Below are positions 10,716-48,162 of a stretch of DNA of 64,000 nt, piece after piece. Source of the DNA: Thioalkalivibrio sp. ALJ3 (GTDB lineage: Bacteria > Pseudomonadota > Gammaproteobacteria > Ectothiorhodospirales > Ectothiorhodospiraceae); NCBI RefSeq assembly GCF_000377205.1, contig NZ_KB897912.1, positions 1-64,000 on the forward strand, read 5' to 3'. The translations under genes and the position numbers were made by a program. The notes below the pieces were generated by a model. It was not told the DNA's origin. It worked only from the letters and a program-made list of their open reading frames with translations, and ran no database searches. The stretch's first letter is position 1. Each line of letters opens with the position of its first letter.

Positions 10716-11152
10716 CGCTCTCTCCAAACATCTGACGGGCCGCATACTAAGGAAACACTGATCAATGTACACACTCGCGCTCGAGTCACTTTTGCGTGCG
10801 AACAAGGCGCGGTGACTGCCGTGCAGTCATTCTGCACAAGGGAGCCGCAACGCCGTTCCCGCGCAAAAGCGGCCGAGCCCCTCCGGGGTTGGTACCCCAG
10901 GTTCCCCGATCCTGCGTTGCGCCGCTTGCGGGTAGAACCACTACCCGCTGCACGACGCGTCTTGCCTCGGAAAACCTGGGATACCAACGCGAGTGTGTAC
11001 ATTGATCAGTGTTTCCTTAACCCAGCAGGGATCATCGGCGAGGCAGGGTCGCGCACACAGACAATTCGCTTAAAATGACGCTCCGGGAAGGAACCCTCCG
11101 CCCTCCACGTGCCTCCAAGCGACCGGCCCTGCCCCATCCGACCGAGAATACG
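10716..11152. other. 437-bp divergent intergenic region occupied by the repeat element
   Basis: This gap separates the divergent copper chaperone and RND adaptor genes. Nearly two thirds of it is the repeat element at 10748-11019, whose edge lies 33 bp before the chaperone start codon. Promoters for both genes must therefore lie inside or beside the element. I see no protein-coding gene or clear operator in the rest. Confidence 0.7.
10748..11019 (+). mobile_element. Copy 2 of the TIR-bounded structured element (MITE-like)
   Basis: A complete 272-bp copy counted from TA to TA. The outer ends are perfect inverted repeats of about 33 bp (beginning TAAGGAAACACTGATC). Inside are a TGACTGC/GCAGTCA hairpin and a nested inverted repeat (10891-10903 with 10973-10985, one mismatch) enclosing a 69-bp module. 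The module contains the hairpin GCGGGTAG-AACCA-CTACCCGC at 10928-10948. No transposase gene is present. Flanking TA on both sides is consistent with insertion by an IS630/mariner-like transposase in trans, which is an inference. Confidence 0.85.
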
Positions 11153-12472
11153 ATGCCGCGCCTACTTCGACGTGCCCTGCCCCCTTTGCTGATCCTCGCC
11201 GCCGCGATCGTGGGCTTCCTCGTATTGCGCGCGACCGGCCCCGAGGCGCCTGCGCCAGAGGCCACCGAACGGACCTGGCCGGTGCAGGGGCTGGTGGCCG
11301 AACTCGGCGAACACCACCCGGGCATCCTGCTGAACGGGCGCAGCGCGTCGGCCCAGACGGCCACGCTGCGCGCAGCCGTGGAGGGCGAGATCGAGGCCGT
11401 CCCGGCCCGGATCGGGGCGCACATGGAGGCTGGCGAAACCCTGGTACGCATCGACCCGCGCGAGGCAGAACTGCTGCTGGCCCAGCGCACGGCCGAACGC
11501 CGTGAGCTCGAGGGAGCGAAGGAGAGCGAGGAGATCCGTGCCCGCTTCGATCGCGAGGCCCTGGTGCGCGAGCGCGAGCTCCTGGAGATCGCCGAGCGTG
11601 GGCTGCGCCGGGCTCAGAACCTGCGTGAACGCGATCTTGGTTCCGAAACCGACGTGGACACGGCCCGGGAGGCCCTGGAGCAGGCCAGCCTGACGGTGGA
11701 CAACCGCGAACAGGCGGTGGCCGATGCCCCGATGCGCATGGCCCAGGCAGAGGCCCGCCTGGAGCGCGCACGGGCTGCCGAGGACCAGGCACGCATCGAT
11801 CTCGAGCGCACCACGATCACCGCACCCTTCGATGCCCGCGTGGTCGAGGTCGAGGTGGCAGCCGGCGAGCGCGCCCGCTCGGGCGACCCGCTCGTGCGCC
11901 TGTTCGCGCTCGACGACCTGGAGATTCGCGCCAGCATCCCGGCCTACATCCTCCCGCGCATCGAAGATCTGCTGGACGCGGGCGAGCAGCTGACCGCCCA
12001 TGCCCGGGTGGGCGGGCGGACGGTGCGTACCGAACTGACGCGCCTGGAAGGCGAAACGCGTGCGGGCGAGGCCGGCACGCGCGGCATCTTCGAGGTGCGC
12101 GAAGGGCATTCCGCGCTGAACCTCAACCGCTTCGTCGAACTGACGCTGCGGTTACCGGCCGAGGCCGACAGCGTGGCCGTGCCCTACGAGGCCCTCTATG
12201 GCCGTGACCAGGTATTCCGCGTGGTGGATGACCGCATGCAGTCGCTGCGGGTCGAGCGCCTCGGCGAGTTCGTGACCGACGCCGGGGACGTCCGGGCGCT
12301 GATCCGTCATCCGGATCTGGAGACGGGCGACATCCTGGTCGCCACCCGCCTGCCCAATGCCGTGGACGGACTGAAGGTCGAGGTCGAGGAGCCTGGCGAA
12401 CGCCCGGACCGCGATGCCGCGATCCCGCGCGCCTCCGGCAGCAACGAGGAACAGGATCCAAACGATGGCTGA
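11153..12472 (+). CDS. RND efflux periplasmic adaptor (membrane fusion protein)
   Basis: Adaptor subunit of a tripartite efflux pump. The 439 residues comprise an N-terminal membrane anchor (about 7-26), a split lipoyl/barrel-sandwich domain (ATLRAAVEGEIEAVPARIG and TTITAPFDARVVEVEVAAGE), a long alpha-helical hairpin rich in Glu and Arg between them, a beta-barrel and a C-terminal membrane-proximal region. The acidic tail overlaps the transporter gene by eight bases, so the two are coupled. I chose ATG 11153, which places the hydrophobic segment at the N-terminus. No outer-membrane channel gene is next to it. Confidence 0.92.
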   Translation: MPRLLRRALPPLLILAAAIVGFLVLRATGPEAPAPEATERTWPVQGLVAELGEHHPGILLNGRSASAQTATLRAAVEGEIEAVPARIGAHMEAGETLVRIDPREAELLLAQRTAERRELEGAKESEEIRARFDREALVRERELLEIAERGLRRAQNLRERDLGSETDVDTAREALEQASLTVDNREQAVADAPMRMAQAEARLERARAAEDQARIDLERTTITAPFDARVVEVEVAAGERARSGDPLVRLFALDDLEIRASIPAYILPRIEDLLDAGEQLTAHARVGGRTVRTELTRLEGETRAGEAGTRGIFEVREGHSALNLNRFVELTLRLPAEADSVAVPYEALYGRDQVFRVVDDRMQSLRVERLGEFVTDAGDVRALIRHPDLETGDILVATRLPNAVDGLKVEVEEPGERPDRDAAIPRASGSNEEQDPNDG

Positions 12473-15400
12473 CGCCGATCCCGGCCAGCGCGCCGGCGAC
12501 GGCCCGGACGAGCGCCCGATGCCCGGCGGGGGGACACGCGACAACGGCCAGCCACCGCGCGGTCCCATTCAGCTGTTCCTGGAACACCGCCTGGCCGCGA
12601 ATCTCCTGATCGCACTGATGGTGTTGGCCGGGGCGTTCGCACTGACCAAACTGAACACCCAGTTCTTCCCGAACTTCGAGCTGGACTTCATGACCGTGGA
12701 AGTGGTCTGGAGCGGGGCCAGTGCGGAGGACGTGGAACAGGCGATCATCGATCCGCTGGAACAGGACCTGCGCACCGTGGACGGCCTGCGCAACATGACC
12801 TCGACCTCCGCGCTGGGGGTCGGCGTGGTCACGCTGGAGTTCGAAGCGGGCACCGACATGACGCGGGCCGCCGAACAGGTCAACGACCGCGTTGACCAGC
12901 AGCGCAATCTGCCGGAAGACGCCGAAACCCCCGTGGTCAAACGGATCATCCGCTACGAACCCGTGGCGCGGCTGCTGATTACCGGCCCGGAAGACCCGCA
13001 GCAGCTGCGCCGGCTGGCACGCCAGTTCGAGCGGGAATTGCTGGATGCCGGCATCGCCCAGATCGAGTTTACCGGGCTGACCGAAGACGAGATGGCCATC
13101 CAGGTGCCGGCCCGCGAGCTTTACCGCCTGGATATGACCCTGGACCAGATCGGTGCGCAGGTCCGCGAGATGGCACAGGACTTCCCCGCCGGCTCGGTCG
13201 GCCGTGACGATACCGCGCGTCAGATCCGCAGTCTGGAGCAGGCGCGCGACGTTATCGGCTTCGAGCGGCTGATCCTGCGTGGCGACACCGATCTGGGACG
13301 AATCAGGCTGGGCGATATCGCCGACATCGAACTGCGCCCGCGCGATGGCGAGGTGCGCAGTCGTGCCAACGGCAAGCCCGCGATCGAGATGCAGCTGCTG
13401 CGTTCGGAGACGGGCGACTCGCTGGAGGCCGCGCGCGTCCTCGAGGACTGGCTGGAGGCGACCAGGCCCACCCTGCCCCCGGGCGTGGATGTCCAGGTGA
13501 TGGATGCCTTCTGGGAACTGCTGGCCGAGCGCATCAACCTGTTGCTGAAAAATGGCCTTGGCGGCCTGATGCTGGTGCTGGGGATCCTGTTTTTGTTCCT
13601 CAACCGACATGTCGCGCTGCGCGTGGCGCTGGGTATCCCGATCGCGTTTACCGCCGCCTTTGTCGTGCTGTGGGTCGTGGGTGGCTCGATCAACATGATC
13701 TCGCTGTTCGGCTTCATCATGTCGCTGGGGATCATCGTCGACAACGCGATCGTGGTCTCGGAGCACGCCTACAGCCTGCACCAGCGCGGGCTGGACGCGG
13801 GCCGGGCCGCGCGCGACGGCGCCCGGCGCATGGTCGGGCCGGTGATTGCAGCCTCGTTGACCACGGTCGCCGCCTTCATGCCGCTGATGCTGATTGGCGG
13901 AGTGATCGGCAACATCCTGTTCGACATCCCGCTGGTGGTGATCTGCGTGATCGTGGCAACCCTGCTGATCGCGTTCCTGATCCTGCCGGCCCACTTGAAG
14001 GGGGTGATGCACCGACTGAAGGAACCGCCCGAAAACAGCCTGCGGGCACGCTTCGATGCCGGCTTCGAACATCTGCGTAACGGCCCGTTCCGCCGTGCCG
14101 TTACGCGCTCGGTGGACCACGCGGGTGTCACGCTGGCGCTGGCCGTGGGCGCGCTGATTCTCGCCATTGGCCTGGCCGCCAGTGGCCGCATCGGCTTCAC
14201 CTTCTTCCCCTCGCCCGAGGGCACCATCGTCAACGCCGGGGTGAACTTCGTCGCCGGCACGCCGCCGGAGCGGGTGGAGTCGTTCCTGATCCACGCCGAA
14301 CGCGCCCTCGAGGAGACCGAGGAGGCGCTGGGCGGCAATCTGGTCCGCACCTCCGTGACCCGTCTCGGCAAGGGGATCGACCCGGGCGATGGCAATGCAC
14401 CCAAGGGGGAGCAGTTCGGCAACATCCAGGTGGAGCTGGTCTCGCCGGAAGAACGGACCGTGCGCAACCGCGAGTTCATCCGCGAATGGGAAGACCGCAT
14501 CCAGCAGGCCCCCGGCATCGAGAACTTCTCCATCGACGAGCGCCAGACCGGCCCGCCCGGGCGGGACCTCGATATCCGCCTGACCGGGGACGACCCGCAT
14601 GTACTGAAGGAGGCGGCGCTGGAGCTGGCCGACATGCTGGACGACTTCCCCGGGACCTTCGCCACCAGCGACGACACTCCGTTCGGGCGCGAGCAGTTCG
14701 TGTTTCAGGTGAAGCCCGAGGGCCGTGCGGTCGGGCTGACGACCGAATCGGTCGGGATACAGTTGCGCAACGCCTTTGATGGCTACCTTGCCCAGCTCTA
14801 TCAGGATGGGCTGGAAGAAGTGGAGGTGCGCGTGCGTCTGCCGGATGGCGAACGCCACCGCAGCGAAAGTCTGGAACGGCTGAACCTGCGTCTCCCGGAC
14901 GGGGCCTTCGTGCCACTGGACGACGTCGTGGAATTGCGCTCGCGCCAGGGGTTCGAGACCCTGCGCCACGCCGATACACGACTGGCCATCCAGGTTTCGA
15001 CCGAGGTAGACCGGGCGATCAACAACGCCGCCCGTATCCGGGCGGCACTCGAGGACGGGCCACTGGACGAACTGGCCAACCGCTATGGTGTCGAGTACTC
15101 GTTCGAGGGGCGCGCGGCCGACCAGGAGGAGACCTTTGCCGACATGCAGATGGGCCTGATCCTGGCGCTTGGCCTGATGTACATCGTGCTCGCCTGGGTG
15201 TTCGCCTCCTGGGGCTGGCCACTGATCGTGATGGCGATCATCCCCTTCGGGATCCTCGGTGCGCTGTTCGGGCACTGGGTGATGGGTGTGGAGCTCACCA
15301 TCCTGTCGCTGTTCGGCCTGTTCGGGCTGACCGGGATCGTGGTCAACAACTCGATTATCCTGGTCAGCTTCTACCAGGGATTGCGCGAAACCGGCCTCGC

Positions 15401-15659
15401 CCTGCGCGAGGCCATCGTGGAGGCCGCCTGTCAGCGCCTGCGCGCGGTCATCCTGACCTCGGTCACCACCATCGCCGGTCTTACCCCGCTGCTGTTCGAG
15501 CGCTCGGTGCAGGCCCAGTTCCTGATCCCAATGGCGATCTCGATCGTCTTCGGGCTGGCCTTCGCCACCCTGTTGGTGCTGTTCGTGATCCCCGCCCTGC
15601 TGCGTCTGTACGAGGGTCGATTCGGGCGTGCTGAGGCCACCGAGGCACCCGTTTCTTGA
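12465..15659 (+). CDS. RND family efflux transporter permease (AcrB/MdtB-type)
   Basis: Proton-driven inner-membrane exporter of 1064 residues, the normal size for the family, with two repeats of six TM segments and two large periplasmic loops. The first TM is near residue 40. TM4 contains GIIVDNAIVVSE, keeping one aspartate of the proton relay; the symmetric second half has GIVVNNSIILVSF. Phe and Gly motifs such as FGFIMSLG and LFGLFGLTG are also typical. The N-terminal 35 residues are an acidic, Pro/Gly-rich cytoplasmic extension. Substrates cannot be predicted: it is closer in pattern to the general multidrug branch than to the CusA metal branch. Confidence 0.93.
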   Translation: MADADPGQRAGDGPDERPMPGGGTRDNGQPPRGPIQLFLEHRLAANLLIALMVLAGAFALTKLNTQFFPNFELDFMTVEVVWSGASAEDVEQAIIDPLEQDLRTVDGLRNMTSTSALGVGVVTLEFEAGTDMTRAAEQVNDRVDQQRNLPEDAETPVVKRIIRYEPVARLLITGPEDPQQLRRLARQFERELLDAGIAQIEFTGLTEDEMAIQVPARELYRLDMTLDQIGAQVREMAQDFPAGSVGRDDTARQIRSLEQARDVIGFERLILRGDTDLGRIRLGDIADIELRPRDGEVRSRANGKPAIEMQLLRSETGDSLEAARVLEDWLEATRPTLPPGVDVQVMDAFWELLAERINLLLKNGLGGLMLVLGILFLFLNRHVALRVALGIPIAFTAAFVVLWVVGGSINMISLFGFIMSLGIIVDNAIVVSEHAYSLHQRGLDAGRAARDGARRMVGPVIAASLTTVAAFMPLMLIGGVIGNILFDIPLVVICVIVATLLIAFLILPAHLKGVMHRLKEPPENSLRARFDAGFEHLRNGPFRRAVTRSVDHAGVTLALAVGALILAIGLAASGRIGFTFFPSPEGTIVNAGVNFVAGTPPERVESFLIHAERALEETEEALGGNLVRTSVTRLGKGIDPGDGNAPKGEQFGNIQVELVSPEERTVRNREFIREWEDRIQQAPGIENFSIDERQTGPPGRDLDIRLTGDDPHVLKEAALELADMLDDFPGTFATSDDTPFGREQFVFQVKPEGRAVGLTTESVGIQLRNAFDGYLAQLYQDGLEEVEVRVRLPDGERHRSESLERLNLRLPDGAFVPLDDVVELRSRQGFETLRHADTRLAIQVSTEVDRAINNAARIRAALEDGPLDELANRYGVEYSFEGRAADQEETFADMQMGLILALGLMYIVLAWVFASWGWPLIVMAIIPFGILGALFGHWVMGVELTILSLFGLFGLTGIVVNNSIILVSFYQGLRETGLALREAIVEAACQRLRAVILTSVTTIAGLTPLLFERSVQAQFLIPMAISIVFGLAFATLLVLFVIPALLRLYEGRFGRAEATEAPVS

Positions 15660-15750
15660 TTCTCGCTCGCCAGCGAGTAAACTTCCGGCGCCACGAATTC
15701 CGTTTCACCGGGGCCCGGCCCCGGCAATCCAAACGTCCCAGGAGATTGGC

Positions 15751-16188
15751 ATGGCTGGACATTTCCCGTTTGCTGGTAAGCGCGGCACGCGCTACGGCCT
15801 CGCCCCGCGCGGCACCATCGCCGCCTTTTTCGAAAACCACGGGTTCAACGAGGACCTGCAGGAGAAGTACTACAAGTGGTGGTACGACTGGGCCAAGGAC
15901 TTCGTCGAGAAGGACGCCGACCTCTCCTACACCATGATCACCAAGTTCGACAGCTATCCGATGGGCACCCATGCCCACCACTCGTTCCATCTGAACGGCA
16001 AGTACTGGCCGAGCTGCCTGGACGAGCTGGGCTCGTTCATCCGTGACGTCATCTTCCCGAAGATGGACGAAAAGGCGATGCACGATCTCGAAGAGAAGCA
16101 CGCCAAGCTGATCAAGGACCTGGAGAAGGAAGCCGAGTCCAACCCGCGCGAAGCGGCCCCGGACGTCGGTCTGTTCCGCCACGTCTGA
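15751..16188 (+). CDS. Conserved-looking aromatic-rich protein of unknown function
   Basis: I do not recognise this 145-residue soluble protein. It has no signal peptide or membrane segment. It is rich in aromatic residues and histidine (KYYKWWYDWAKDF near 39-51, GTHAHHSFHLNGKYWPSC near 75-92), has a single cysteine, and ends in a charged predicted coiled coil (LEEKHAKLIKDLEKEAE) before a short tail ending in GLFRHV. A near-consensus AGGAG ribosome site and a strong rho-independent terminator directly behind the gene suggest an abundant monocistronic product. The RND gene ends 91 bp upstream and nth starts beyond the terminator. Confidence 0.75.
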   Translation: MAGHFPFAGKRGTRYGLAPRGTIAAFFENHGFNEDLQEKYYKWWYDWAKDFVEKDADLSYTMITKFDSYPMGTHAHHSFHLNGKYWPSCLDELGSFIRDVIFPKMDEKAMHDLEEKHAKLIKDLEKEAESNPREAAPDVGLFRHV

Positions 16189-16209
16189 CCGGCACCCTCG
16201 CCGCAGCAT

Positions 16210-16240
16210 CCGGCCCCGCCCTGCGGGGCCGGTTTGTTTA
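16210..16240 (+). terminator. Rho-independent terminator
   Basis: A GC-rich hairpin (CCGGCCCCGC...GCGGGGCCGG, 16210-16232) is followed by TTTGTTTA, directly after the unknown 145-residue gene. It separates that gene from nth, which starts at 16255. Confidence 0.85.
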
Positions 16241-16254
16241 GGGAAACCTGCTTA

Positions 16255-16902
16255 ATGAACGCCGCGAAGCGTGAAGCCATCTTCGAACGCCTGAAGGCGG
16301 CGAACCCCGAGCCGACCACCGAGCTCGAGTACAACACCCCCTTCGAGCTACTGATCGCGGTCATCCTGTCGGCCCAGGCCACGGATGTCGGCGTGAACAA
16401 GGCCACCCGCCGCCTCTACCCCGTCGCCAACACGCCCGAGGCCATCCTCGCGCTGGGCCTCGACGGGCTGAAGGAACACATCAAGACCATCGGCCTGTAC
16501 AACGCCAAGGCCGAGAACGTGATCAAGACCTGCCGCATCCTGGTGGAACAGCACGGGAGCGAGGTTCCACGCGACCGCAAATCGCTGGAGGCCCTTCCGG
16601 GTGTGGGGCGCAAGACCGCCAACGTGATCCTGAATACGGCATTCGGCATTCCGACGATTGCAGTGGACACCCACATCTTCAGGGTCGCCAACCGCACCGG
16701 ACTGGCGCCCGGCAAGAACGTGCTGGACGTCGAAAAGCGACTGATGCGGCTAACACCGAAGCCCTATTTGCAGGACGCCCATCACTGGCTGATCCTGCAT
16801 GGACGTTATGTCTGCAAGGCCCGCAAGCCCGAATGCTGGCGCTGTCCGATCGAGGACCTGTGTGAATACAAGGCGAAGACGCCACCCCCAGCCGGGGCCT
16901 GA
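16255..16902 (+). CDS. nth: Endonuclease III
   Basis: DNA glycosylase/AP lyase for oxidised pyrimidines. The 215-residue protein has the helix-hairpin-helix LPGVGRKTANVIL with the catalytic lysine and the downstream aspartate in VDTHIFRV, followed by the [4Fe-4S] ligands in the C-x6-C-x2-C-x5-C arrangement (CKARKPECWRCPIEDLC). All catalytic features are intact, in contrast to the second HhH-GPD protein at 28599-29258. ATG 16255 is preferred over the in-frame ATG at 16234, which lies in the terminator region. DUF1841 follows on the same strand 28 bp downstream. Confidence 0.95.
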   Translation: MNAAKREAIFERLKAANPEPTTELEYNTPFELLIAVILSAQATDVGVNKATRRLYPVANTPEAILALGLDGLKEHIKTIGLYNAKAENVIKTCRILVEQHGSEVPRDRKSLEALPGVGRKTANVILNTAFGIPTIAVDTHIFRVANRTGLAPGKNVLDVEKRLMRLTPKPYLQDAHHWLILHGRYVCKARKPECWRCPIEDLCEYKAKTPPPAGA

Positions 16903-16930
16903 ACGCCCCCATACCTTCGAGGAACACCCC

Positions 16931-17356
16931 ATGTACGGCAACCGCGACCAGATCCGCACCCAGTTCGTCGACGCCTGGCATAAGGCACAAGCTGGCGAGA
17001 CGTTGACCGACCTGGAACAGCAGCTGGTGGACGTGATCTCGGAACACCCCGAGTACCACGAGTTCATCAAGGACCGCGAGACTGCCCTGACCGGCGAGTT
17101 TCCGCCGGAACTGGGCACCTCCAATCCATTCCTGCACATGGCCATGCACCTGAGCCTGCGCGACCAGGCTCGCACTGACCGCCCCACTGGCATTCAGGCC
17201 GCACACGCGAGCCTGTGTGCCCGTTTTGGCGTGATGGATGCCGAGCACCGGATGATGGAGTGCCTGGGCCAGGCCCTGTGGGAGGCCCAGCGCAACAACA
17301 CGCCGCCGGACCAGAATGCCTACCTCGAATGCATCCAGCGCCTCGCGGCGCGCTAG
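16931..17356 (+). CDS. DUF1841 family protein
   Basis: Cytoplasmic protein of 141 residues resembling the DUF1841 family found in beta- and gammaproteobacteria. The conserved middle section NPFLHMAMHLSLRDQ with its His/Met/Leu pattern, the DRPTGI motif and the C-terminal NNTPPDQNAYLECI are typical. No signal peptide or membrane segment is visible and no function is known. It lies 28 bp behind nth and is probably co-transcribed with it. Confidence 0.85.
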   Translation: MYGNRDQIRTQFVDAWHKAQAGETLTDLEQQLVDVISEHPEYHEFIKDRETALTGEFPPELGTSNPFLHMAMHLSLRDQARTDRPTGIQAAHASLCARFGVMDAEHRMMECLGQALWEAQRNNTPPDQNAYLECIQRLAAR

Positions 17357-17364
17357 GGACGGAT

Positions 17365-17844
17365 CTAACGCGCAAACAGGCGCTGCCACCAGCGCCGGCG
17401 GCTTCCGGTTGGCGGCATCACGGCTTGCAGATCCACAGGAGGGACCCGCGAGAGCACCCAACCGGGCAGAATCCGCAGGCCCGAAGAACCACAACTGGCG
17501 CCCAGATGGTTGGGATCAAAGATCTTCACGAAAGTGGGGGCATCACGGTCGTCGACATAGACGATTCCGCAGTAATCTTCGTCGTGGTCGCGGCGCAGCA
17601 GCCGATCGACCTCTTCGATGAAATGCAGAAAATCGGCGCGCGCCGCTGGCTCGGGGGGCACCGACTCCCCAACCGCATAGATATACCAGTGATCGTCCGC
17701 CTGCTCGCGCAAGCGTGCCCACACGGCATCCAGATCGCTCCAGTGCAACACGCCCGTACTGCCCGCCTGGAAACGCTGGAGAAAGTCGTGGTCGACAGCA
17801 GGCGGGGCGGGCATCGCAGTGGCCGGTTGAGGATGAGTCATCAT
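17365..17844 (-). CDS. Uncharacterised small acidic protein
   Basis: I do not recognise this protein of about 159 residues. It has no signal peptide or membrane segment. The region WSDLDAVWARLREQADDHWYIYAVG and DFLHFIEEVDRLLRRDHDEDYCGIVYVDD looks like a compact alpha/beta domain rich in Asp and aromatic residues; it ends with a basic tail (GSRRRWWQRLFAR). ATG 17844 or 17841 are equally possible starts. It converges on DUF1841 (8 bp gap) and is divergent from the SRPBCC gene. Confidence 0.6.
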   Translation of the reverse strand: MMTHPQPATAMPAPPAVDHDFLQRFQAGSTGVLHWSDLDAVWARLREQADDHWYIYAVGESVPPEPAARADFLHFIEEVDRLLRRDHDEDYCGIVYVDDRDAPTFVKIFDPNHLGASCGSSGLRILPGWVLSRVPPVDLQAVMPPTGSRRRWWQRLFAR

Positions 17845-17936
17845 CGTAGCCCGCCGTGGATCTGGTTGCATGGAACCCCTGGCCTGCGCGAGCCTCTGAT
17901 CAGCAAGTACCGCTCACTCTCCCCAGCGCCTGGACG

Positions 17937-18371: not shown

Positions 18372-18389
18372 CAATCCGGAGGACGCGCC

Positions 18390-19547: not shown

Positions 19548-19592
19548 CAGAGCGGACCTCCGGAGGCACGGGCACGGCGGAGCGCGCCCATG

Positions 19593-21830: not shown

Positions 21831-21860
21831 GCGAGTCAGCGCCTGGCGCAACCGAGCTCG

Positions 21861-34089: not shown

Positions 34090-34471
34090 CCCGCCCCGAC
34101 GCGGCGTTCCGGTTCTGGCGAGAGGCTGCATCGCCACTGCCGTGGCTTGGCCTCACGCAGCCTCGAACGGCACGCCTCCGGATTCATCCTAGGGAAACAC
34201 TGATCCATGTACACGCTCGCGCTCGAGTCGCTTTTGCGTGCGAACAAGGCGCGGTGACTGCCGTGCAGCATTCTGCACAAGGGAACCGCAACGCCGTTCC
34301 CGCGCAAAAGCGGCCGAGCCCCTGCTTTAAAAGGATCGTGGGGTTGGCACCCCAGGTTCCCCGATCCTGCGTTGCGGCCCTTGCCGGTAGAACCACTACC
34401 GGCTACGCACCGCGCCTTGTCTCGGAAAACCTGGGGTACCAACGCGAGCGTGTACATGGATCAGTGTTTCC
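34090..34471. other. Gene-free stretch dominated by repeat copy 3
   Basis: From the LysR start to the ORF6N-like gene stop, this region holds about 100 bp without clear structure and then the repeat element at 34190-34474. The LysR promoter must lie in the first 100 bp or within the element. No gene is seen. Confidence 0.7.
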
Positions 34472-34474
34472 CTA
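34190..34474 (+). mobile_element. Copy 3 of the TIR-bounded structured element
   Basis: A complete copy of 285 bp from TA to TA with perfect outer inverted repeats beginning TAGGGAAACACTGATC. The inner inverted repeat (34346-34358 with 34428-34440) encloses a 69-bp module with the hairpin GCCGGTAG-AACCA-CTACCGGC at 34383-34403, in which both arms differ from copy 2 but still pair. A short extra stretch, CTGCTTTAAAAGGATCGT, precedes the inner repeat. The right TA together with the adjacent base of the element forms the TAG stop of the neighbouring ORF6N-like gene. Confidence 0.88.
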
Positions 34475-38038: not shown

Positions 38039-38055
38039 ACGCCGCACGAGGCCGC

Positions 38056-39030: not shown

Positions 39031-39108
39031 CGAGACACGTTACCAGAACCCCACGCTGTATCCGGGCTTCGTTGCCCTCGGCATCGGGACGGTTCAGGCT
39101 TGGAAATA

Positions 39109-39122
39109 ATCGATATATCGAT
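39109..39122. promoter_or_regulatory. 14-bp palindrome in the transporter/arsS divergent gap
   Basis: ATCGATATATCGAT is a perfect palindrome 29-42 bp upstream of the arsS start. Its AT-rich sequence stands out in this GC-rich DNA. It may be an operator (an ArsR-type site is one option) or part of a -10 region; no regulator gene lies beside it. Confidence 0.4.
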
Positions 39123-39150
39123 ACATCTCCTTCAGTCGGCCGCCGATGTC

Positions 39151-40110: not shown

Positions 40111-40159
40111 GTACCCTGCGACCATTCAAATCCTCAACCACGATGAAAAGGAGTTCGTC

Positions 40160-40624: not shown

Positions 40625-40686
40625 GCACCAGCACCCGGCGGGCGATTCGTTATAGTGGGGGCCGGACCCAATTCACCGGGGGACTC

Positions 40687-41184
40687 ATGGATCGCCCGCC
40701 TCATTTCAATCCTTCGGCGCGTGCCGAAGATGTGCTCGGCTGGCGCGAATGGGTCGGCCTGCCGGATCTCGGCCTCGGGGCCATCAAGTGCAAGGTGGAC
40801 ACCGGCGCACGCAGTTCCGCGCTGCACGCCTTTTATGTCGAGAGTTTCACCCGCGACGGGCGTGAGTGGGTGCGCTTTGGCATCCATCCCTATCAGCAGG
40901 ATGACCAGACCGAGGCCTGGTGCGAGGCCCCGGTGCTGGATGTCCGCAACGTGACCGACTCCGGCGGCCATACCGGGGAGCGCTATTTCATCGCCACCCG
41001 TGCAAAAATCGGTGATCGAGTGGTCCCTCTGGAACTTTCCCTGACCAGCCGCGATACCATGCGCTTTCGTATGCTGCTCGGACGCGAGGCCATGCGGGGG
41101 CGCTTTCTGGTCGACCCCCGGGCGTCGTTCTTGCTCGGGCGCCCCACTCCACATCTCGCAACACCGGAATCCACGCCCGAATGA
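40687..41184 (+). CDS. RimB-like retropepsin-fold protease (ATP-dependent zinc protease family)
   Basis: A 165-residue cytoplasmic protein of the family often labelled ATP-dependent zinc protease. The motif [13 protein letters not shown] contains Asp38 in a D-T-G-A arrangement, the signature of aspartic retropepsin-like proteases, and [11 protein letters not shown] near 120 is the second conserved part. In Pseudomonas, RimB of this family removes or trims the glutamates that RimK adds to ribosomal protein S6. It overlaps rimK by four bases (ATGA). A TATAGT box at 40651-40656 could be its -10 element. Confidence 0.88.
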
Positions 41185-42086
41185 AGCTCGGAATCCTCTC
41201 GCGCAACAGCAAGCTCTACTCCACCCGGCGCCTGGTGGAGGCAGCCCAGCAACGCGGCCACGAAATCCGCGTGGTGGACCCGCTGCGCTGCTACATGAAC
41301 ATCACGGCACACAAGCCGCAAATCCACTACAAGGGCGATGTCCTCGACCAGTTCAACGCGGTGATCCCGCGTATCGGTGCCTCCATTACCTTCTACGGTA
41401 CCGCGGTGCTGCGTCAGTTCGAGATGATGAGCGTCTATCCCCTGAACGAATCGGTGGCCATTTCGCGCTCGCGCGACAAGCTGCGCAGCCTGCAACTGCT
41501 GTCGCGCCGCGGCATCGGGCTCCCGGTGACCGGGTTTGCCCACTCCCCCGACGATATCGACGACCTGCTCGAGACCGTCGGCGGCGCACCCTGCGTAATC
41601 AAGCTGCTGGAAGGGACCCAGGGCCTGGGGGTCGTGCTGGCCGAGACCAAGCAGGCCGCCGATAGCGTGATCCAGGCGTTCATGGGTCTCAGGCAGCATA
41701 TTCTGGTGCAGGAATACATCAAGGAGGCCAAGGGATCGGATATCCGCTGTTTCGTGATCGGCGAGAAGGTCGTCGCCTCGATGAAGCGCCAGGCGAAAGA
41801 CGGCGAGTTTCGCTCCAATCTGCATCGCGGTGGCACGGCGACACTGTGCCGTATCACCCCCGAGGAACGGGCCACGGCCGTCCGCGCGGCCAAGGTAATG
41901 GGGCTGAACGTCTGCGGCGTGGACCTCCTGCGCTCCAACCATGGAGCGGTGGTAATGGAGGTCAACTCCTCGCCGGGCCTGGAGGGGATCGAAAACGCGT
42001 CCGGCAAGGATGTCGCCGGCATGATCATCGAGTTCATCGAGAAGAACGCCAAGCCGAACCGCACCAAGACCAAGGGCCGTGGTTGA
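41181..42086 (+). CDS. rimK: ATP-grasp ligase RimK (ribosomal protein S6 glutamate ligase)
   Basis: A 301-residue ATP-grasp enzyme of normal RimK length. Recognisable parts are the N-terminal [21 protein letters not shown], the ATP-lid region [20 protein letters not shown] and the metal-binding end [18 protein letters not shown]. It adds glutamates to the C-terminus of ribosomal protein S6 and in this family can also make other peptide bonds. It is translationally coupled to the RimB-like gene before it and the deacylase gene behind it (TGATG overlap). Confidence 0.93.
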
Positions 42087-43156
42087 TGGCCACGCCCAGA
42101 GCCGACCGTAACGACCCTATCACCATTGGCGGGACGACTGTCCGCCCGGGCGAACGGCGCACGGTGGAGTTGCAGCTCGGCGCCCTGTACACCCACACCC
42201 CGACCAATATGCCCGTGCAGGTCCTGTGCGGCCGGCGCAAAGGGCCGATTCTGTTCGTCAGCGCCGCCATACATGGCGACGAGATCAACGGCGTGGAGAT
42301 CATCCGCCGCCTGCTGAAGATCCCGGCGCTGCGGCGCATGCGGGGCACACTGCTGGCGGTCCCCGTGGTCAACATGCACGGCTTCATCAACCAAAGCCGC
42401 TACCTGCCCGACCGGCGCGACCTGAATCGCTGTTTCCCGGGCTCGCCCAAAGGTTCGCTGGGTGCCCGGATTGCACGGCTGTTCATGCGCGAGATCGTCC
42501 ACCGCAGTACCCACGGGATCGACCTGCACACCGGGGCGATCCATCGCTCCAACCTGCCGCAGATCCGGGCCAACCTCGACCACGCGGAGACACAGGAACT
42601 GGCGCGTGCCTTCGGCGCACCGGTGGTCCTGAATTCCGCACTGCGCGACGGATCCCTGCGCGAAGCCGCTGCTGAGCGGGATACGCCGATCCTGCTGTAC
42701 GAGGCCGGCGAGGCCCTGCGCTTCGACGAGCTGTCCATCCGCGGCGGTGTGCACGGGATCATCGAGGTGATGCGGCATCTCGGCATGCTGCCGGCGATCC
42801 GGCGCCGCAGCCCACGCGAGCCTATCATGGCCCGCACCAGCGGCTGGGTACGTGCCCCCCAAAGCGGCATCCTGCGCAGCTTCGTGCGCCAGGGCGACCG
42901 CGTGGTCCGCGACCAGACGCGCCTGGCGATCGTCTCCGATCCCTTCGGCGAGACCGAGACCGAGGTCCTCGCCCCGGCCTCGGGGATCGTCATCGGGCAG
43001 CTCAACCTGCCCCTGATCAACGAGGGCGACGCCCTGTTCCATATCGCGCAGTTCAACCGGACCGATCTGGCGGTGGAGCGCCTGGAGACCTTCCAGGAGA
43101 ACCTCGAGGCCAGCGACTACCCCTACGCCGACGCCCCGCGCCCGGAAACGCCCTGA
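42086..43156 (+). CDS. Succinylglutamate desuccinylase/aspartoacylase family protein
   Basis: A 356-residue zinc carboxypeptidase-like hydrolase. The metal ligands are in AAIHGDEINGVEIIRRLL (H and E) and GIDLHTGAIHRSNLPQ (H), with the DRRDLNRCFPG substrate-binding Arg-rich motif; the C-terminal part forms a lipoyl-like barrel (SGWVRAPQSGILRSFVRQGD). It probably releases an N-acyl or glutamyl group from a small molecule or peptide. Coupled to rimK by a one-base overlap, it is likely the third part of a RimB-RimK unit. The substrate is not known. Confidence 0.88.
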   Translation: MATPRADRNDPITIGGTTVRPGERRTVELQLGALYTHTPTNMPVQVLCGRRKGPILFVSAAIHGDEINGVEIIRRLLKIPALRRMRGTLLAVPVVNMHGFINQSRYLPDRRDLNRCFPGSPKGSLGARIARLFMREIVHRSTHGIDLHTGAIHRSNLPQIRANLDHAETQELARAFGAPVVLNSALRDGSLREAAAERDTPILLYEAGEALRFDELSIRGGVHGIIEVMRHLGMLPAIRRRSPREPIMARTSGWVRAPQSGILRSFVRQGDRVVRDQTRLAIVSDPFGETETEVLAPASGIVIGQLNLPLINEGDALFHIAQFNRTDLAVERLETFQENLEASDYPYADAPRPETP

Positions 43157-43232
43157 CGTTCACACTCGCGGGGGATCAAAACCCGCTGTCACCACGTCTA
43201 CGGCTTGAACCCATTCAACCAGACCTCTGTCC

Positions 43233-44573
43233 ATGACCCGTTTGCCCCTGTGGCTCAACGCCCTGCTCCTGACTGGCGCCCTGTGTGCCAGCCCCGCCCT
43301 GGCCCAAGAGATTGCCGAACAGACCCCGGACGATGCCCAGACCGGTGCGGTCTCCGCCGCCACCAGCATCGATGCTGGCGGGGCCGAGATCCCGGTCGAG
43401 CGCTATCCCGCCGATGGCGAGGCCGTACTGCTGTGGTTCCCGTCCGAGCACGGGCTGCTGGACGGCCATCGGCAGCAGGCCCTGGCGCTGCAGGCCGCCG
43501 GCGTCGAAGTCTGGCTGGCGGACCCGTTCGCCGGGCACTTCCTCCCCGAGGCCGCCTCCAGCTTCGACGAGATGCCGACCGAGACCGTGGGCGACCTGAT
43601 TGAGACCGCGCACGCCGAGGACGAGCGTGCGGTTTTCGTGTTCGGCAATGACCGTGCCCTGCCCTGGCTGCTGACGGGCCTGTATCACTGGCAGGAGGAG
43701 CACCCCGAGGCAGAACACCTCCTGGGGCTGATCATGATGAGTCCGTACCTGCATACCGGCGTTGACACCGACGAGGCCGAGATGCAGCCCATCGTCGGCG
43801 TCACCAACCTGCCGGTCTACATCATCCAGCCCATGCTGTCCCCGCAATTCCAGCACCTCGGGCTGATCCGCTCGACCCTGAGCGACGGGGGCAGCACCGT
43901 CGGCGCGCGCCTGCTACCCGAGCTACGGGACCGGTTCTTTTTCCGCCCCGATGCGATGGAAGCCGAACTCCTGGCACGCGAAACCTTCCACCAGGAACTC
44001 GTCTATGGCATGGACCTGTTGCGGCGCCTGCCCGCCGCGCGCACCGCCGCCGCATCCGACGACCTGGATCTGAGCGTGAACACGCCCACCGGCGGCGACG
44101 TCCAGCTGGATGCACTGGACGAGCCGGTCGCGGCGCCCGAACTGGTCCGCCCGGACCTGGCCGGCGAGGAACACCGTCTGGAGGACTATCGTGGCGAGGT
44201 CGTGCTGATCAATTTCTGGGCCAGCTGGTGCCCGCCCTGCGTGCACGAAATGCCTTCCATGCAGCTACTGGAAGACGAGCTGCGCGAAGAGGGCTTTCGC
44301 ATCCTCGCCGTGAATCTTGGCGAAGACGAAGAGACCATCCGCGACTTCATCGAAAACGAGGTGCAAACCGAGTTTACCATCCTGCTCGACCCGGACCAGG
44401 AGTCGCTGAACGACTGGCGCGCGATGGCCTACCCCACCAGCTATGTCGTCGACCGCGAGGGCAACCTGCGCTACTACCTGTTCGGCGCGATCGAGTGGAC
44501 CGAACCCGGCGTCATCGACCAGATGCGCGAGCTGCTCGAGGAAGACTACGAAGCCCCGGAAGGCGACGATTAG
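43233..44573 (+). CDS. Exported fusion of a degenerate alpha/beta-hydrolase-like domain and a TlpA-like thioredoxin
   Basis: A 446-residue protein with a signal peptide (LTGALCASPALAQ). Residues about 50-275 resemble an alpha/beta-hydrolase (DUF3530-like), but the elbow region VFGNDRALPW lacks the nucleophilic serine. Residues about 300-440 form a TlpA/ResA-type thioredoxin with WASWCPPCVHEMPS and the cis-proline in AYPTSYVVD. Periplasmic TlpA proteins reduce cytochrome c or copper-binding partners; the hydrolase-like part may dock a partner. It converges on the sulfatase gene with a four-base overlap of stop regions. Confidence 0.82.
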   Translation: MTRLPLWLNALLLTGALCASPALAQEIAEQTPDDAQTGAVSAATSIDAGGAEIPVERYPADGEAVLLWFPSEHGLLDGHRQQALALQAAGVEVWLADPFAGHFLPEAASSFDEMPTETVGDLIETAHAEDERAVFVFGNDRALPWLLTGLYHWQEEHPEAEHLLGLIMMSPYLHTGVDTDEAEMQPIVGVTNLPVYIIQPMLSPQFQHLGLIRSTLSDGGSTVGARLLPELRDRFFFRPDAMEAELLARETFHQELVYGMDLLRRLPAARTAAASDDLDLSVNTPTGGDVQLDALDEPVAAPELVRPDLAGEEHRLEDYRGEVVLINFWASWCPPCVHEMPSMQLLEDELREEGFRILAVNLGEDEETIRDFIENEVQTEFTILLDPDQESLNDWRAMAYPTSYVVDREGNLRYYLFGAIEWTEPGVIDQMRELLEEDYEAPEGDD

Positions 44574-46165
44574 TCCGAGCCGGGCGGCGTCCCGAACGCC
44601 TCGCGCAGCCAGCCGCGCAGGGCGTCAAAGCCATGCTCCGCCCGCTCCGAGGGCGGCTGCATGCCCGGGACGAACCCGTACTCGCGAAACGGCTCCAGCA
44701 AGGCTGGATCGCCGCTGATGACGTGCACGGGCACGGCCCAGCTGGCGTCCTGACCGGTCACCAGGGCGGCCGGCTGGTGATCGCCCAGCATGAAAAACAG
44801 CGTGTCCTCGTCCACGTACCGCGCCGCATAGCCCCCGGTCACCTCCAGCGAATAGCGCACCGACTCCGCGTAGTACTCGCGCACGCGATCGAAGTCCCGC
44901 CACAACGACTCCGGGGTCGGTCCCTTGCCGGCCCACTCGTCGAAGACCGCGCCGTCCCCGATCGCCTCCCAGTCCTCCAGCACCGGCAGGATCGGGGTCC
45001 ACGGCGCATGCGAACTGATCAGGGCCAGCATCGCGAATACCGGACGTTCCGAGGGCCCGCGGATCTCGCGTTCGAAGAACGACCAGGTGTACTGATCCGG
45101 CATGGTCACCCAGAAAAACGGTGGCCCGGCGTACTCGAACCCGTGCTTGTCGACGATCCGGTCCCAGCGAAACCACTGACCCTCCGGCCAGTCGAGCTGG
45201 ATCGCCGGGGCCAGCATGGCCGTCTCGTGTCCGGTGGCCTGAAAGTCCTGCACCAGGGTGTCGCGGGTCTGTGCCTGCAGGGCGTCGTAATGCCCGGCAT
45301 AGCGCACTTGCAGGCCCGTGAGCAGCGAAGCCTGCGCCAACCAGGACTGCCCACCGGCGATCGGGGCCTCCAGTACGCCAGTCACGACATGCAGGTCCGC
45401 GTCGTCGAGTTGCTCGCCGATAAAATCCAGGCTCGGCACGATCACCGGTGCATAACGCTCGTCGAACACGGCCGAGACCCCGTAGGACTCTACCAGTCCC
45501 AGGATCACATCCACGTCGCCAAGACCCGGCAAGGGACGCCCCTCGGCCTGCTCGCGGGTCTGTTCCAGGCGCTCGCGAAATGCGCGGTTCTCCGCCAATG
45601 CCCCCTGCCCAGCCACAATCTGCTCCTGGACCGAAACCATCCCGGGCGCGGCCGTACCCGGCGGAGCCGCCCCTCGCATGGAGCCGAGCGCCCCCACCAG
45701 CCCGAGCGTGAACAGCCCGACCGCGACGGACAGGGGTATCCGGCGCCCTGGTGCCGACTGCACGGTCAGCGCGAACAGGCCACGAGCAGCGCCTGCGATG
45801 ATCGCGACCAGCCCCGCGACCAGGACGACCACCAGCCCCACCGTGGCCCAAACATCCAGATTGCCGGTCACCAGCCGCCAGACCGCGTCCAGCAGGATCC
45901 AGTCCTGGATCACGTTCAGGGGACGTACCAGGCTGATGCGGGTCAGGGCATCGAACAGCGCCAGAACCACCAGCGCCAGCAGAATAAAACCAGCCAGCCA
46001 GGCCAACGCGCGTGCCAGCCGCCCGGCGGGCAGCAGCGCGAACAGCCCTACCAGCAAGACCGCTTCCCAGGCCAGCCAGTGGGGTCCGATTCCCGCGTGA
46101 CGGGGCACGTCCAGCCCCAGCAGCACGACGTTGAGTGCCGCGAGGGTCAGCAGCAGTCGGATCAC
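44570..46165 (-). CDS. Membrane sulfatase/phosphoglycerol transferase family protein
   Basis: A protein of about 531 residues with four or five N-terminal TM segments (to about 165) and a periplasmic alkaline-phosphatase-superfamily domain. Active-site region GLVESYGVSAVF, HAPWTP and the metal-binding MLGDHQPAALV match the LTA-synthase/sulfatase family; the usual nucleophile Thr/Ser is Ser here (ESYGVS). Relatives add phosphoglycerol or phosphoethanolamine to surface lipids or glycans. GTG 46165 is preferred; the longer ATG start at 46204 lies inside the repeat element. Before that insertion the gene lay about nine bases behind the cytochrome b561 stop. Confidence 0.8.
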   Translation of the reverse strand: MIRLLLTLAALNVVLLGLDVPRHAGIGPHWLAWEAVLLVGLFALLPAGRLARALAWLAGFILLALVVLALFDALTRISLVRPLNVIQDWILLDAVWRLVTGNLDVWATVGLVVVLVAGLVAIIAGAARGLFALTVQSAPGRRIPLSVAVGLFTLGLVGALGSMRGAAPPGTAAPGMVSVQEQIVAGQGALAENRAFRERLEQTREQAEGRPLPGLGDVDVILGLVESYGVSAVFDERYAPVIVPSLDFIGEQLDDADLHVVTGVLEAPIAGGQSWLAQASLLTGLQVRYAGHYDALQAQTRDTLVQDFQATGHETAMLAPAIQLDWPEGQWFRWDRIVDKHGFEYAGPPFFWVTMPDQYTWSFFEREIRGPSERPVFAMLALISSHAPWTPILPVLEDWEAIGDGAVFDEWAGKGPTPESLWRDFDRVREYYAESVRYSLEVTGGYAARYVDEDTLFFMLGDHQPAALVTGQDASWAVPVHVISGDPALLEPFREYGFVPGMQPPSERAEHGFDALRGWLREAFGTPPGSD

Positions 46166-46179
46166 GGGCGGACGGACAT

Positions 46180-46465
46180 TAGGGAAACACTGATCTATGT
46201 ACACGCTCGCGCTCGAGTCGCTTTTGCGTGCGAACGAGGCGCGGCGACCGCCGTGCAGTCATTCTGCACAAGGGAACCGCAACGCCGTGCGCGCGCCCGT
46301 TTTTGATAACAACAGGCGGCCGAGCCCCTTCGGGGTTGGCACCCCAGGTTTTCCGAGACAAGGCGCGGTGCGCAGCCGGTAGTGGCTCTACCGGCAAGGG
46401 CCGCAACGCAGGATCGGGGAACCTGGGGTGCCAACGCGAGCGTGTACATTAATAGTGTCTCCCTA
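46180..46465 (+). mobile_element. Copy 4 of the TIR-bounded structured element, inner module inverted
   Basis: A complete copy of 286 bp from TA to TA. The left end matches copies 2 and 3 (TAGGGAAACACTGATC); the right end is slightly diverged and resembles the other subfamily (GTGTCTCCCTA). The inner inverted repeat (46338-46350 with 46420-46432) is perfect. The 69-bp module between its arms (46351-46419) is reversed relative to the other copies: its complement differs from copy 3 at about two positions. The hairpin GCCGGTAG/CTACCGGC is at 46375-46395. The right TA forms the TAG stop of cytochrome b561. Confidence 0.88.
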
Positions 46466-47044
46466 GCGCCGCGGGGAACCGAACGTCATCCGCTGCAGGA
46501 CACCATCCCGGCGCACACGCCAGTGGTACAGGGCCGCCGAGATATGGCCCAGTGCCAGCACCAGAATGGTGATCCCCAGGATCTGGTGCCAGGCGAACAG
46601 GGTCTCCGACAGCGCCTCGTTTTCCGGGAACAGGCCCGGCAGGATCAGCGGACCCAGTTGCACCGGGTAGCCGCCGGCCGCCGTCGCCCACCAGCCGATC
46701 ACCGGCATCACGATCAGCAGCAGATACAGCAGCCCGTGGACCGACTCGGCCGCGATGCGCTGGGCCGAAGGCAACGCGACCGCGTAGGGCGGCTTGCCGT
46801 GACGCAGACGCAGGCCCACACGCACCAGCATCAGCAGCAAAATCAGCACCCCGAAGCTCTTGTGCCAGGTATAGATAGTGTCGGTCATGCCCTCGCCAAA
46901 GCGGTCCTGCAACCCGTCGAAGCCAAACCAGCCGATGGTGCCGCCCAGCGCCAGCGCACCCAGCACCAGCACGGCGACCGCCCAGTGCACAATCCGCTGG
47001 CTCAGGGCGTAACGCGGCCACTCTCCAGTATTGCCCGTATCCAT
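46463..47044 (-). CDS. Cytochrome b561 family protein
   Basis: A 193-residue inner-membrane protein with four TM segments and the bacterial b561 haem-ligand histidines: RIVHWAVAVLV (TM1), YTWHKSFGVLI (TM2), HGLLYLLLIVMP and FAWHQILGITILVLALGHIS. It probably transfers electrons from quinol to a periplasmic acceptor, as in the CybB group. ATG 47044 has a ribosome site (GGGAG). Its stop TAG is produced at the edge of the repeat element. The pre-insertion sequence would read TAA here. It is divergent from the HAD phosphatase gene. Confidence 0.88.
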   Translation of the reverse strand: MDTGNTGEWPRYALSQRIVHWAVAVLVLGALALGGTIGWFGFDGLQDRFGEGMTDTIYTWHKSFGVLILLLMLVRVGLRLRHGKPPYAVALPSAQRIAAESVHGLLYLLLIVMPVIGWWATAAGGYPVQLGPLILPGLFPENEALSETLFAWHQILGITILVLALGHISAALYHWRVRRDGVLQRMTFGSPRR

Positions 47045-47167
47045 CCCGCACTCCCGTTCGTGTATGTCCCCAACATGCCGCCCACACACGATACCTGCAA
47101 CCCGTCGTTCCCCCACCTCGCCTGGCGAGATACACCCGTCACCGTGCAGGGCCAGTATGCTTTGAAC

Positions 47168-47893
47168 ATGCGCTCACCCGAACCCACTACCCCATCGCTG
47201 GCCGGCGTACGCTGCCTGACGTTCGACCTCGACGACACCCTGTGGCCGGTGATGCCGGTGATCCAACATGCGGAGGCGCGCTTCTACGCCTGGCTGCGCG
47301 AGCATGCGCCGGTCATCTGCGAACGGTTTGATCCGCAGGCGCTGATTGCCGAACGGGCCGCCTTCATGCGCGCCGCACCTGAGGATGAACGCCACGATCT
47401 GACGCGGCTGCGCAAGCACTGGCTGCGCGAGCTGGCCACGGACTGTGGCTGCTGTCCTGATTTGTTGTCCGACGAGGGATTCGAGGTGTTCTGGCATGCG
47501 CGCAACGAGGTGACGCCCTTCCCCGAGGCTGACGGCGTACTCGCCACGCTGTCGCGTCACTTTCGGCTGGGCGCGATCAGTAACGGCAATGCCGATGTCT
47601 TTCGCACGCCCCTGGGGCGTCATTTCGACTTCGCGATCGCGGCGGGCGAGGCCGGCGCGGCCAAGCCCGACCCGGTAATCTTCGCACAAGCCCGCGAGCA
47701 GGCCGGCGTCGACCCCGAACGGATCCTGCATGTGGGCGATGACAGCACCAGCGACGTCCTCGGGGCCCTGAACGCCGGGTTCCATGCGGCCTGGTTCAAC
47801 CCCGACGCGCTGCCCTGGGAACACGGGCGGCCCCGACCGGTGCTGACACTGGGCCGCCTGGGCCAGTTGCCCCGACATCTCGGGATCGACTAG
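47168..47893 (+). CDS. YigB-like HAD-superfamily phosphatase
   Basis: A 241-residue HAD-IA hydrolase. Motif I is TFDLDDTLWP, motif II is the Ser/Thr in AISNGNADVF, motif III is the Lys in GAAKPDPVIF and motif IV is HVGDDSTSDVLGALNAGFHAAW. This pattern, including SNGN and DDxTxDV, is closest to E. coli YigB, which hydrolyses FMN in riboflavin-linked metabolism. The stop codon TAG at 47891-47893 is made of the TA edge of the repeat plus its first G. An upstream extension of the reading frame overlaps cytochrome b561 and is not real. Confidence 0.87.
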   Translation: MRSPEPTTPSLAGVRCLTFDLDDTLWPVMPVIQHAEARFYAWLREHAPVICERFDPQALIAERAAFMRAAPEDERHDLTRLRKHWLRELATDCGCCPDLLSDEGFEVFWHARNEVTPFPEADGVLATLSRHFRLGAISNGNADVFRTPLGRHFDFAIAAGEAGAAKPDPVIFAQAREQAGVDPERILHVGDDSTSDVLGALNAGFHAAWFNPDALPWEHGRPRPVLTLGRLGQLPRHLGID

Positions 47894-48162
47894 GGAGACG
47901 CTGATTTAATCGCACGTCCGCGTTGGTGCCCCCTGTTTTCCGAGACAAGGCGCGTCGTGCAGCGGGTAGTGGTTCTACCCGCAAGCGGCGCAACGCAGGA
48001 TCGGGGAACAGGGGGCACCAACCCCGAAGGGGCTCGGCCGCTTTTGCGCGCGAACAGCGTTGCGGTTCCCTTGTGCAGAATGACTGCACGGCAGTCACCG
48101 CGCCTTGTTCGCACGCAAAAGCGACTCGAGCGCGGACGTGCGATTAAATCAGCGTCTCCCTA
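47891..48162 (-). mobile_element. Copy 5 of the TIR-bounded structured element (second subfamily)
   Basis: A 272-bp copy in reverse orientation. The outer arms (TAGGGAGACGCTGATTTAATC at the left, perfect complement at the right) differ from copies 2-4 on both sides and still pair. The inner arms GGTGCCCCCTGTT (47925-47937) and AACAGGGGGCACC (48007-48019) also differ on both sides and pair perfectly. The hairpin GCGGGTAG-TGGTT-CTACCCGC is at 47962-47982. It lies between the convergent HAD and arfB genes, where its hairpins could end transcription from both sides. Confidence 0.88.

Follow-up and report, generated by a model that had tools for sequence, protein, structure and literature searches.

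The window analyzed here comprises bases 1–64000 of contig 8 of Thioalkalivibrio sp. ALJ3, a sulfur bacterium of soda lakes (genome 2.63 Mb, 12 contigs), and carries four complete copies and one contig-cut copy of a short repeated element with terminal inverted repeats (TIRs). We think it probable that this element is a cruciform miniature inverted-repeat transposable element (MITE) of Thioalkalivibrio, mobilized by an IS5-type enzyme and selected for its transcribed orientation, as has been argued for ERIC. An original prediction, made from the letters alone, had described five TA-bounded copies with long inverted ends that fall into two subfamilies; all five are in place, and the subfamilies are real in the TIRs.

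The element in the window and beyond

The complete copies measure 272, 285, 286, and 272 bp. The first (10748–11019, + strand) is of the left-end type at both sides (LE–LE; TAAGGAAACACTGATCAATG) and is flanked by divergent called genes; the second (34190–34474, + strand), also LE–LE and with a long loop C, lies between two called genes of the – strand. In both, the TIR arms are 32 bp long and 100% complementary. Within the second copy, the A-side arm of the TIR stem (34190–34221, + strand) pairs with 34443–34474, and the two large hairpins are A (34229–34312, + strand; outer arms 34229–34245 and 34296–34312) and B (34343–34443, + strand; arms 34343–34364 and 34422–34443). The open reading frames (ORFs) tested beside this copy had no Pfam match, and the element's terminal CTA is the stop codon of the ORF to its right. 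The third copy (46180–46465, + strand) carries the module plug1 and has a damaged right end, which brings its arm match down to 15 bp. Its inner 101 bp, i.e., hairpin B (46335–46435, – strand), are inverted with respect to the other copies and 97% complementary to 34343–34443; the original prediction overlooked this rearrangement, and a first impression that such inversion is common was rejected, as it occurs in 1 of 142 elements. A cytochrome b561-type gene (46463–47116, – strand; PF01292) adjoins the copy, and its transcription reaches it from the B side. The fourth copy (47891–48162, – strand) is of the right-end type (RE–RE; TAGGGAGACGCTGATTTAATC) and sits at the TAG stop of a HAD-type hydrolase gene (47171–47893, + strand; PF00702, E 9e-20), with the stop kept as the first three bases of the element. 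Its TIR stem arm at 47891–47922 (no strand assigned) is partnered by 48131–48162, and the arms reach 36 bp at 97% when flanking bases are counted in. The partial copy (1–144, – strand), recognized by its sequence and an end-pattern match at 130–144, has RE-type ends and is truncated where contig C8 begins.

Specifically on coding capacity, the element had been called non-coding and free of a transposase gene. ORFs of ≥90 aa, called mechanically, do overlap the window copies, so the claim holds in the narrower sense that the three overlapping ORFs tested had no Pfam match and that the ALJ3 genome has no match to PF01609 (DDE_Tnp_1) or PF13358. Five of the nine window proteins tested were without a Pfam match, among them 149–1669, a poorly chosen frame.

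Across the 2.63-Mb genome, the 15-base end pattern (≤1 mismatch) has 137 matches, as compared to 0 for a backward-read control. As a lower bound, drawn from 65 fetched stretches among the end matches listed plus the window, at least 52 near-full copies are present: 50 readable by script (255–317 bp) and two with a damaged end (window copy 46180 and L110:2158–2442). The genome-wide abundance that the original prediction raised as possible is thus real. Shortened copies (L116, 245 bp; L094, 229 bp; L142, 162 bp) and further copies cut by contig ends also occur. Contigs of the ALJ3 genome start (C2, C3, C7, C8, and C9) or end (C1, C2, and C4) in or at element copies, so the assembly breaks at the element. 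Minimal end-to-end palindromes of ~28–32 bp were seen at L101:2056–2083, at L091:6640–6671, and near position 6523 of L151; these are apparently copies stripped of their whole interior.

A scan of genome_contigs for paired ends returned 83 stretches: 69 from Thioalkalivibrio, 3 from Methylonatrum kenyense, 10 from Ectothiorhodospiraceae bins, and 1 from Thiobacillus denitrificans. The last, in strain RG, was rejected as a family member on account of its unrelated interior. When one copy was used as the query against 40 related genomes, 14 matched, including 13 of the 25 genomes of the same genus (ALJ3 counted); the 14th is distant and matches only once and weakly (E 4e-4). At the level of sequence, the family is shown to have diverged relatives in Methylonatrum and in the Ectothiorhodospiraceae bins.

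No element match was found among PLSDB plasmids and phages at E 1e-5, and the whole-element pattern has 0 matches in viral_contigs. The hairpin core was considered as a phage-borne module and rejected as a chance match: the CAAGGCGCG..GCGCAACGC pattern hits at least 120 stretches of viral_contigs, only 1 of the 116 usable ones has well-paired arms, and the element end is absent from all of the loci listed. Among the papers listed, the literature search turned up no description of the family, and those on Thioalkalivibrio repeats concern REPs, judging by titles and the openings of abstracts. The original prediction knew of no described family with this sequence, which agrees with the Rfam, PLSDB, phage, and literature searches, though this agreement is not proof. 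The element is an abundant and apparently undescribed MITE family.

Insertion sites and a probable IS5-family partner

The original prediction had staked its reading of a mostly intergenic MITE with a TA target on finding further copies in the genome and sites that are empty in relatives, and both were found. In G001, where the DNA is 92% identical, the 47891 site is empty, with GATCGACTAGGCG in place of the GATCGACTA-element-TAGGCG of ALJ3 (in short form, GACTAGGCG vs. GACTA-element-TAGGCG). The same site in G020 is occupied by a differently built copy in which all three length modules differ, implying that modules are exchanged in place or that sites are reused. The 46180 site is empty in G020, which has CA where ALJ3 has TA, and a lone TIR remains there in G001. 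Five further filled/empty pairs, judged by eye, are L067/L378, L079/L394, L373/L364, L364/L373, and L088/L207. A joined-flank search of the fetched bacterial loci gave 36 sites, many of them low-identity or self matches (e.g., L052 and L071), and only the pairs named here were used. The empty counterpart is TA in four of these seven pairs (L067/L378, L079/L394, L088/L207, and window 47891).

TA is found at both ends in 101 of 158 sites, in the contexts CTAG|CTAG (64), TTAA|TTAA (11), TTAG|CTAA (5), and others (21). These TA-bounded sites and their contexts point to a YTAR target with duplication of at least the TA; the contexts examined are compatible with a duplication of either 2 or 4 bp. 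Comparison of sites thus shows, as far as sequence can, that the element inserts at TA within YTAR, mostly CTAG or TTAA. At L071:455–1038, two element copies stand back to back with one TA in common, one ending in GGGAGACGCT and the other in GGGAAACACT.

The original prediction assigned mobility to an IS630/Tc1-mariner-type enzyme, for which the TA at both ends speaks, and asked for a full-length insertion sequence (IS) with the same ends. Such an IS exists, and it belongs to another family. PF13358 (DDE_3) has 0 matches in the ALJ3 genome (its relatives were not searched for this domain), insertion occurs at YTAR, and the element's ends recur in relatives around a transposase of the IS5 family, so that we regard mobilization by an IS630/Tc1-mariner enzyme as barely credible. 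Specifically, a PF01609 search of 12 other genomes found matches in five, with element ends around the transposase at L212, L213, and L215. The transposases at these loci are of the IS5 family (NF033581, E 2e-91 or better; PF01609 and PF05598). The IS protein is present in 6 of 30 genomes of the genus, full or near-full in five and as a fragment in G006, with three copies of the IS in G044. Both ends lie 1175–1226 bp apart in 8 of 10 IS loci, including the degenerate L431 with its two stops; of the other two loci, L423 has a single end, at the edge of a contig, and L428, a fragment, has none. L423, L426, and L427 coincide with L212, L215, and L213, respectively. A different PF01609 transposase stands beside the end-like GGAAGGCGCTGAAAAAAGC at L216 (G021), and may be the source of another end type.

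The two ends of the IS differ from one another. One reads ...CTGATCAATG, and the other ...CTGATTTAATC, ...CTGATTTAATT, ...CTGATTTATTC, or ...TTGATTTATGC. The ends of the MITE, classified by bases 19–21 with LE defined as the CTGATCAATG end, are LE–LE at 116 sites and RE–RE at 41, with one undecided (158 sites). The stem of hairpin B tracks the end type (159 sites): CAGGTT accompanies 105 LE–LE copies and CTGTT 36 RE–RE copies, the exceptions are CAGGTT in three RE–RE copies, CTGTT at the undecided site, and 14 others.

As a candidate IS5-family derivative, the element shares 15–20 bp of each end and the TA-in-YTAR target with the IS. YTAR is the target of the IS5 group. Unlike the IS, the element has no transposase, both of its ends copy one IS end, and there is no other similarity: in a blastn comparison of two MITE copies with eight IS copies, nothing beyond the ends matched except short words (E 0.02 or worse). 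The element is therefore unlike an IS with its gene deleted and, on this comparison of sequences, consists of a palindromic core of unrelated sequence, flanked on either side by a copy of the same IS end. We infer that an IS5-type transposase moves it in trans. It has the further features of a MITE, i.e., it is short, has TIRs, and occurs in many copies, with empty sites, target duplication, and an autonomous relative that shares its ends.

Fold, modules, and orientation between genes

Copy 47891 folds over its 272 bases into one structure, a four-way cruciform in which a 32-bp TIR stem closes hairpins A, C (small), and B. The DNA fold reaches –119 kcal/mol (z –15), and the RNA fold has z –17 on both strands, and none of 200 shuffles matches these values; for a copy from Methylonatrum, z is –13. 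In a 24-sequence cross-genus alignment, 89% of cells pair, and 51 of 111 pairs have changed on both sides. Cells with two-sided change number 228 as compared to 84 in shuffles, and none of 500 shuffles attains any of the five measures. Sliding the partners lowers pairing to 36–47%. The structure used here is that of a single copy and leans toward its source, because the RNAalifold consensus of the 24 sequences was dropped: it paired hairpin A with hairpin B, whose cores are alike. The big hairpins conserve the cores CAAGGCGCG and GCAAC. TIR arms also match better within a copy than between copies, in each of four sets (permutation p 0.0018 or below).

The structure is modular. Three positions are two-state, each with or without ~15 nt (bimodal lengths), and all eight combinations occur (60, 37, 28, 8, 6, 6, 2, and 1 among the 148 of 158 sites that can be classified). 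Hybrid copies such as L128, whose B stem has one side from each subfamily, suggest recombination between copies. The plug1 module is inverted in L043, L049, and L130; inversion of an apical loop alone was seen in none of the readable copies (the A loop has its standard orientation in 132 of the 142 elements and the B loop in 134). Template switching is reported to leave two marks, homogenized arms and inverted spacers (PMC8604942, PMC8794818), and we infer that template-switch copying between arms acts in this element.

Orientation relative to neighboring genes was read from 191 copies at 158 sites, 151 of which have a called gene on both sides, by means of our own codon-usage gene caller. Two items from L052 (Thiobacillus) were removed from an initial 193 copies; they are still included in the inner-base, stop-codon, convergent, B-stem, GC-skew, own/other, and homologue-merge counts, and as both are convergent the tandem counts are unchanged. 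At tandem sites, where both neighboring genes point the same way, the B side is the first to be transcribed in 77 cases and the A side in 23 (p 5.5e-8), as would be expected of an ERIC-like element. The first count, in ALJ3, was 23:8 (B:A here and below), and the next set gave 44:11. The 77:23 divides into 19:7 for ALJ3 and 58:16 for other genomes. The bias rises with closeness of the downstream start: 45:6 at ≤60 bp, 29:13 at 61–300 bp, and 3:4 at >300 bp. The 60-bp cut was picked after inspection of the data, and outside the first set it gives 15:1.

Could the bias have arisen artificially, from the gene calls, from interrupted genes that were scored as pairs, or from related sites that were each counted? 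In favor of an artefact, the caller is home-made, the several genomes belong to one genus, the 60-bp cut is post hoc, and 4 of 99 tandem sites (one omitted) look like interrupted genes. At one of these, L055:6726–7011, the copy splits a glucose/sorbosone dehydrogenase-type gene whose halves match one GSDH profile at 1–186 and 188–332; L065, L081, and L367 were judged interrupted by frame. In addition, L144 is open in another frame, and 12 of the 99 sites trim the 3′ end of a gene. A statement that no copy lies inside a gene would be too strong: zero copies lie within called genes, but a gene disrupted by an insertion registers with the caller as two separate genes. On the other side, the bias persists without the four apparent interrupted genes (73:22 overall, 41:5 within 60 bp), with homologous sites merged (74:22, or 67:20 by either homologous flank), at sites outside the first set (20:7, p 0.019), and in ALJ3 and the other genomes taken separately. 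Among the called neighbors of 20 random tandem sites, 37 of 40 match a Pfam family on the strand assigned by the caller; this check makes an artefact less likely, and we regard it as very improbable. Many copies abut a stop codon that the element supplies or keeps, either TAG (bases 1–3) or TGA (bases 12–14).

What maintains the element

Three aspects of the element are separable: its mobility, seen in the empty sites; the upkeep of its structure, seen in co-changing arms and symmetric ends; and selection after insertion, suggested by the distance-dependent orientation. The account that we favor would connect them as follows. An IS5-type transposase would cut at the shared ends and move the element in trans, template-switch copying between arms would keep the arms complementary, and recombination between copies would mix the modules. 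Once co-transcribed with its neighbors, the RNA structure would alter the surrounding message according to orientation (by processing, stability, or polarity), and the other orientation would be purged, chiefly where the next gene starts close by. As the ends are symmetric, we read the orientation bias as post-insertion selection acting via the transcript, and an orientation-dependent RNA effect most likely lies behind it. A narrower version, held only tentatively, makes the element a mobile, strand-specific operon spacer: RNA read B-first would be of benefit, or at least tolerated, in the space from one stop codon to the following start and the reverse would be harmful, selection would have oriented it across the genus, and template switching would keep the stems paired and the ends symmetric.

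The two main alternatives divide these aspects differently. The element may be a neutral MITE whose ends, stems, and orientation arise from copying and insertion alone, the bias being an insertion preference tied to transcription or replication. Template switching alone reportedly homogenizes arms and inverts spacers (PMC8604942, PMC8794818), so that covariation by itself is no proof of selection; modules in inverted orientation do occur here (copy 46180 and the three plug1 cases), and the Methylonatrum-type copies show no bias. Yet symmetric ends should give a transposase no cue to orientation, the increase of the bias toward the downstream start is not obvious from an insertion preference, and the bias is similar at both local GC-skew signs (38:13 and 39:10), GC skew being a weak proxy for replication direction. 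We consider this alternative unlikely, if a serious one. The element may instead be a selected structural RNA or regulatory module that is mobile only incidentally, e.g., an RNase III/RNase E processing site or an attenuator placed at many sites. The two-sided changes across genera, the conserved CAAGGCGCG and GCAAC cores, and the orientation bias all fit such a module, as against the tolerance of module swaps and of one inverted hairpin, the difference in all three modules between the copies of two genomes at one site (L183), and the lack of any hint that the transcribed strand favors G-U pairs. It strikes us as doubtful.

Several observations weigh against the account that we favor. The partner IS was not found in the ALJ3 genome (0 PF01609 matches; 0 matches to the IS protein at E 1e-30), and the case for mobilization in trans is built on the shared ends. 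The empty counterpart is CA at 46180 and in L364/L373 and TG in L373/L364, i.e., other than TA in three of the seven pairs, and copies with an inner A/T occur almost only at TTAA (TTAA|TTAA 11; CTAA|TTAG 0), a pattern for which plain TA duplication does not account. The covariation shuffles ignore relatedness, and the structure on which they were scored was taken from one aligned sequence. In the TIR stem, G-U pairs seem more frequent on the usually untranscribed strand, a pattern read by eye and dominated by two positions, which does not favor selection on the transcribed stem. The sites outside the first set, used for validation, come partly from the same genomes as that set. The Methylonatrum-type copies, with two called neighbors at 11 of 13 loci, stand at 3:6 in tandem and thus lack the ERIC-like orientation seen in Thioalkalivibrio; convergent sites show no preference as to which end faces the stop (13 of 26); and the apparent interrupted genes described above count on the same side. 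Two copies scanned for promoters had none, and one terminator-like match was within chance. Rfam gave 0 matches in the window at the gathering score and 0 in L001 at E up to 1.

Among described systems, ERIC is the closest in behavior. ERIC/IRU elements are, like this one, short, intergenic, TA-bounded inverted repeats, and co-transcription is a reported feature of ERIC. Orientation-dependent destabilization of the upstream message via an exposed RNase E site has been reported for ERIC, which is 127 bp long with a 7-bp TIR as compared to the 265–317 bp of the element here (PMC2229807, PMC10969869). Unlike for ERIC, an IS5-type partner is identified here and orientation was counted over many sites, and the RNA effect here is a proposed one. 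Correia/NEMIS of Neisseria differs in size (107 and 155 bp) but has a similar TIR length (24 bp) and TA ends, and its structured transcripts reportedly undergo RNase III processing (PMC2229807, PMC10969869). Of the pneumococcal BOX and RUP elements, BOX is reported to be modular, with ends that resemble those of an IS and a boxB effect that depends on orientation (PMC3049150). BOX varies in its boxB units, whereas the element here has three separate sites with one ~15-nt insert each in a closed cruciform. The variation of boxB is one of tandem repetition. With template-switch hairpin evolution the element shares arm homogenization and loop or module inversion; the process is described in RNA genes and yeast coding DNA (PMC8794818, PMC8604942), and here we propose it for a bacterial MITE, including its TIRs.

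What is gained is a MITE family, apparently undescribed and present in high numbers, for which a partner of the IS5 type has been identified, and the features likely to be unexpected to specialists are its orientation preference and its end-symmetric, modular cruciform. If the RNA reading is true, the ~100 co-directed sites with known orientations amount to a natural experiment on intergenic hairpins in operons.

Other repeats occur alongside this family. REP/BIME elements with RAYT (tetranucleotide-tagged palindromes of 20–40 bp and a Y1 transposase) are unlike the element in size and TIR anatomy; GTAG-1 and GTAG-5 REPs, which are short GTAG repeats, are reported from two other Thioalkalivibrio (PMC3733652). 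At L052:2809–3102 of Thiobacillus denitrificans RG, two differing short repeats have the same ends and one TA in common, and one of them holds a GCGAGGAGCGAAGCGACGCGGCAATCC-type palindrome. Another repeat, which begins TAGGGAAGCGCTGA and has an unrelated interior, lies at L125:1933–2114 and near position 10561 of L106, and is possibly a second MITE with the same or a related enzyme.

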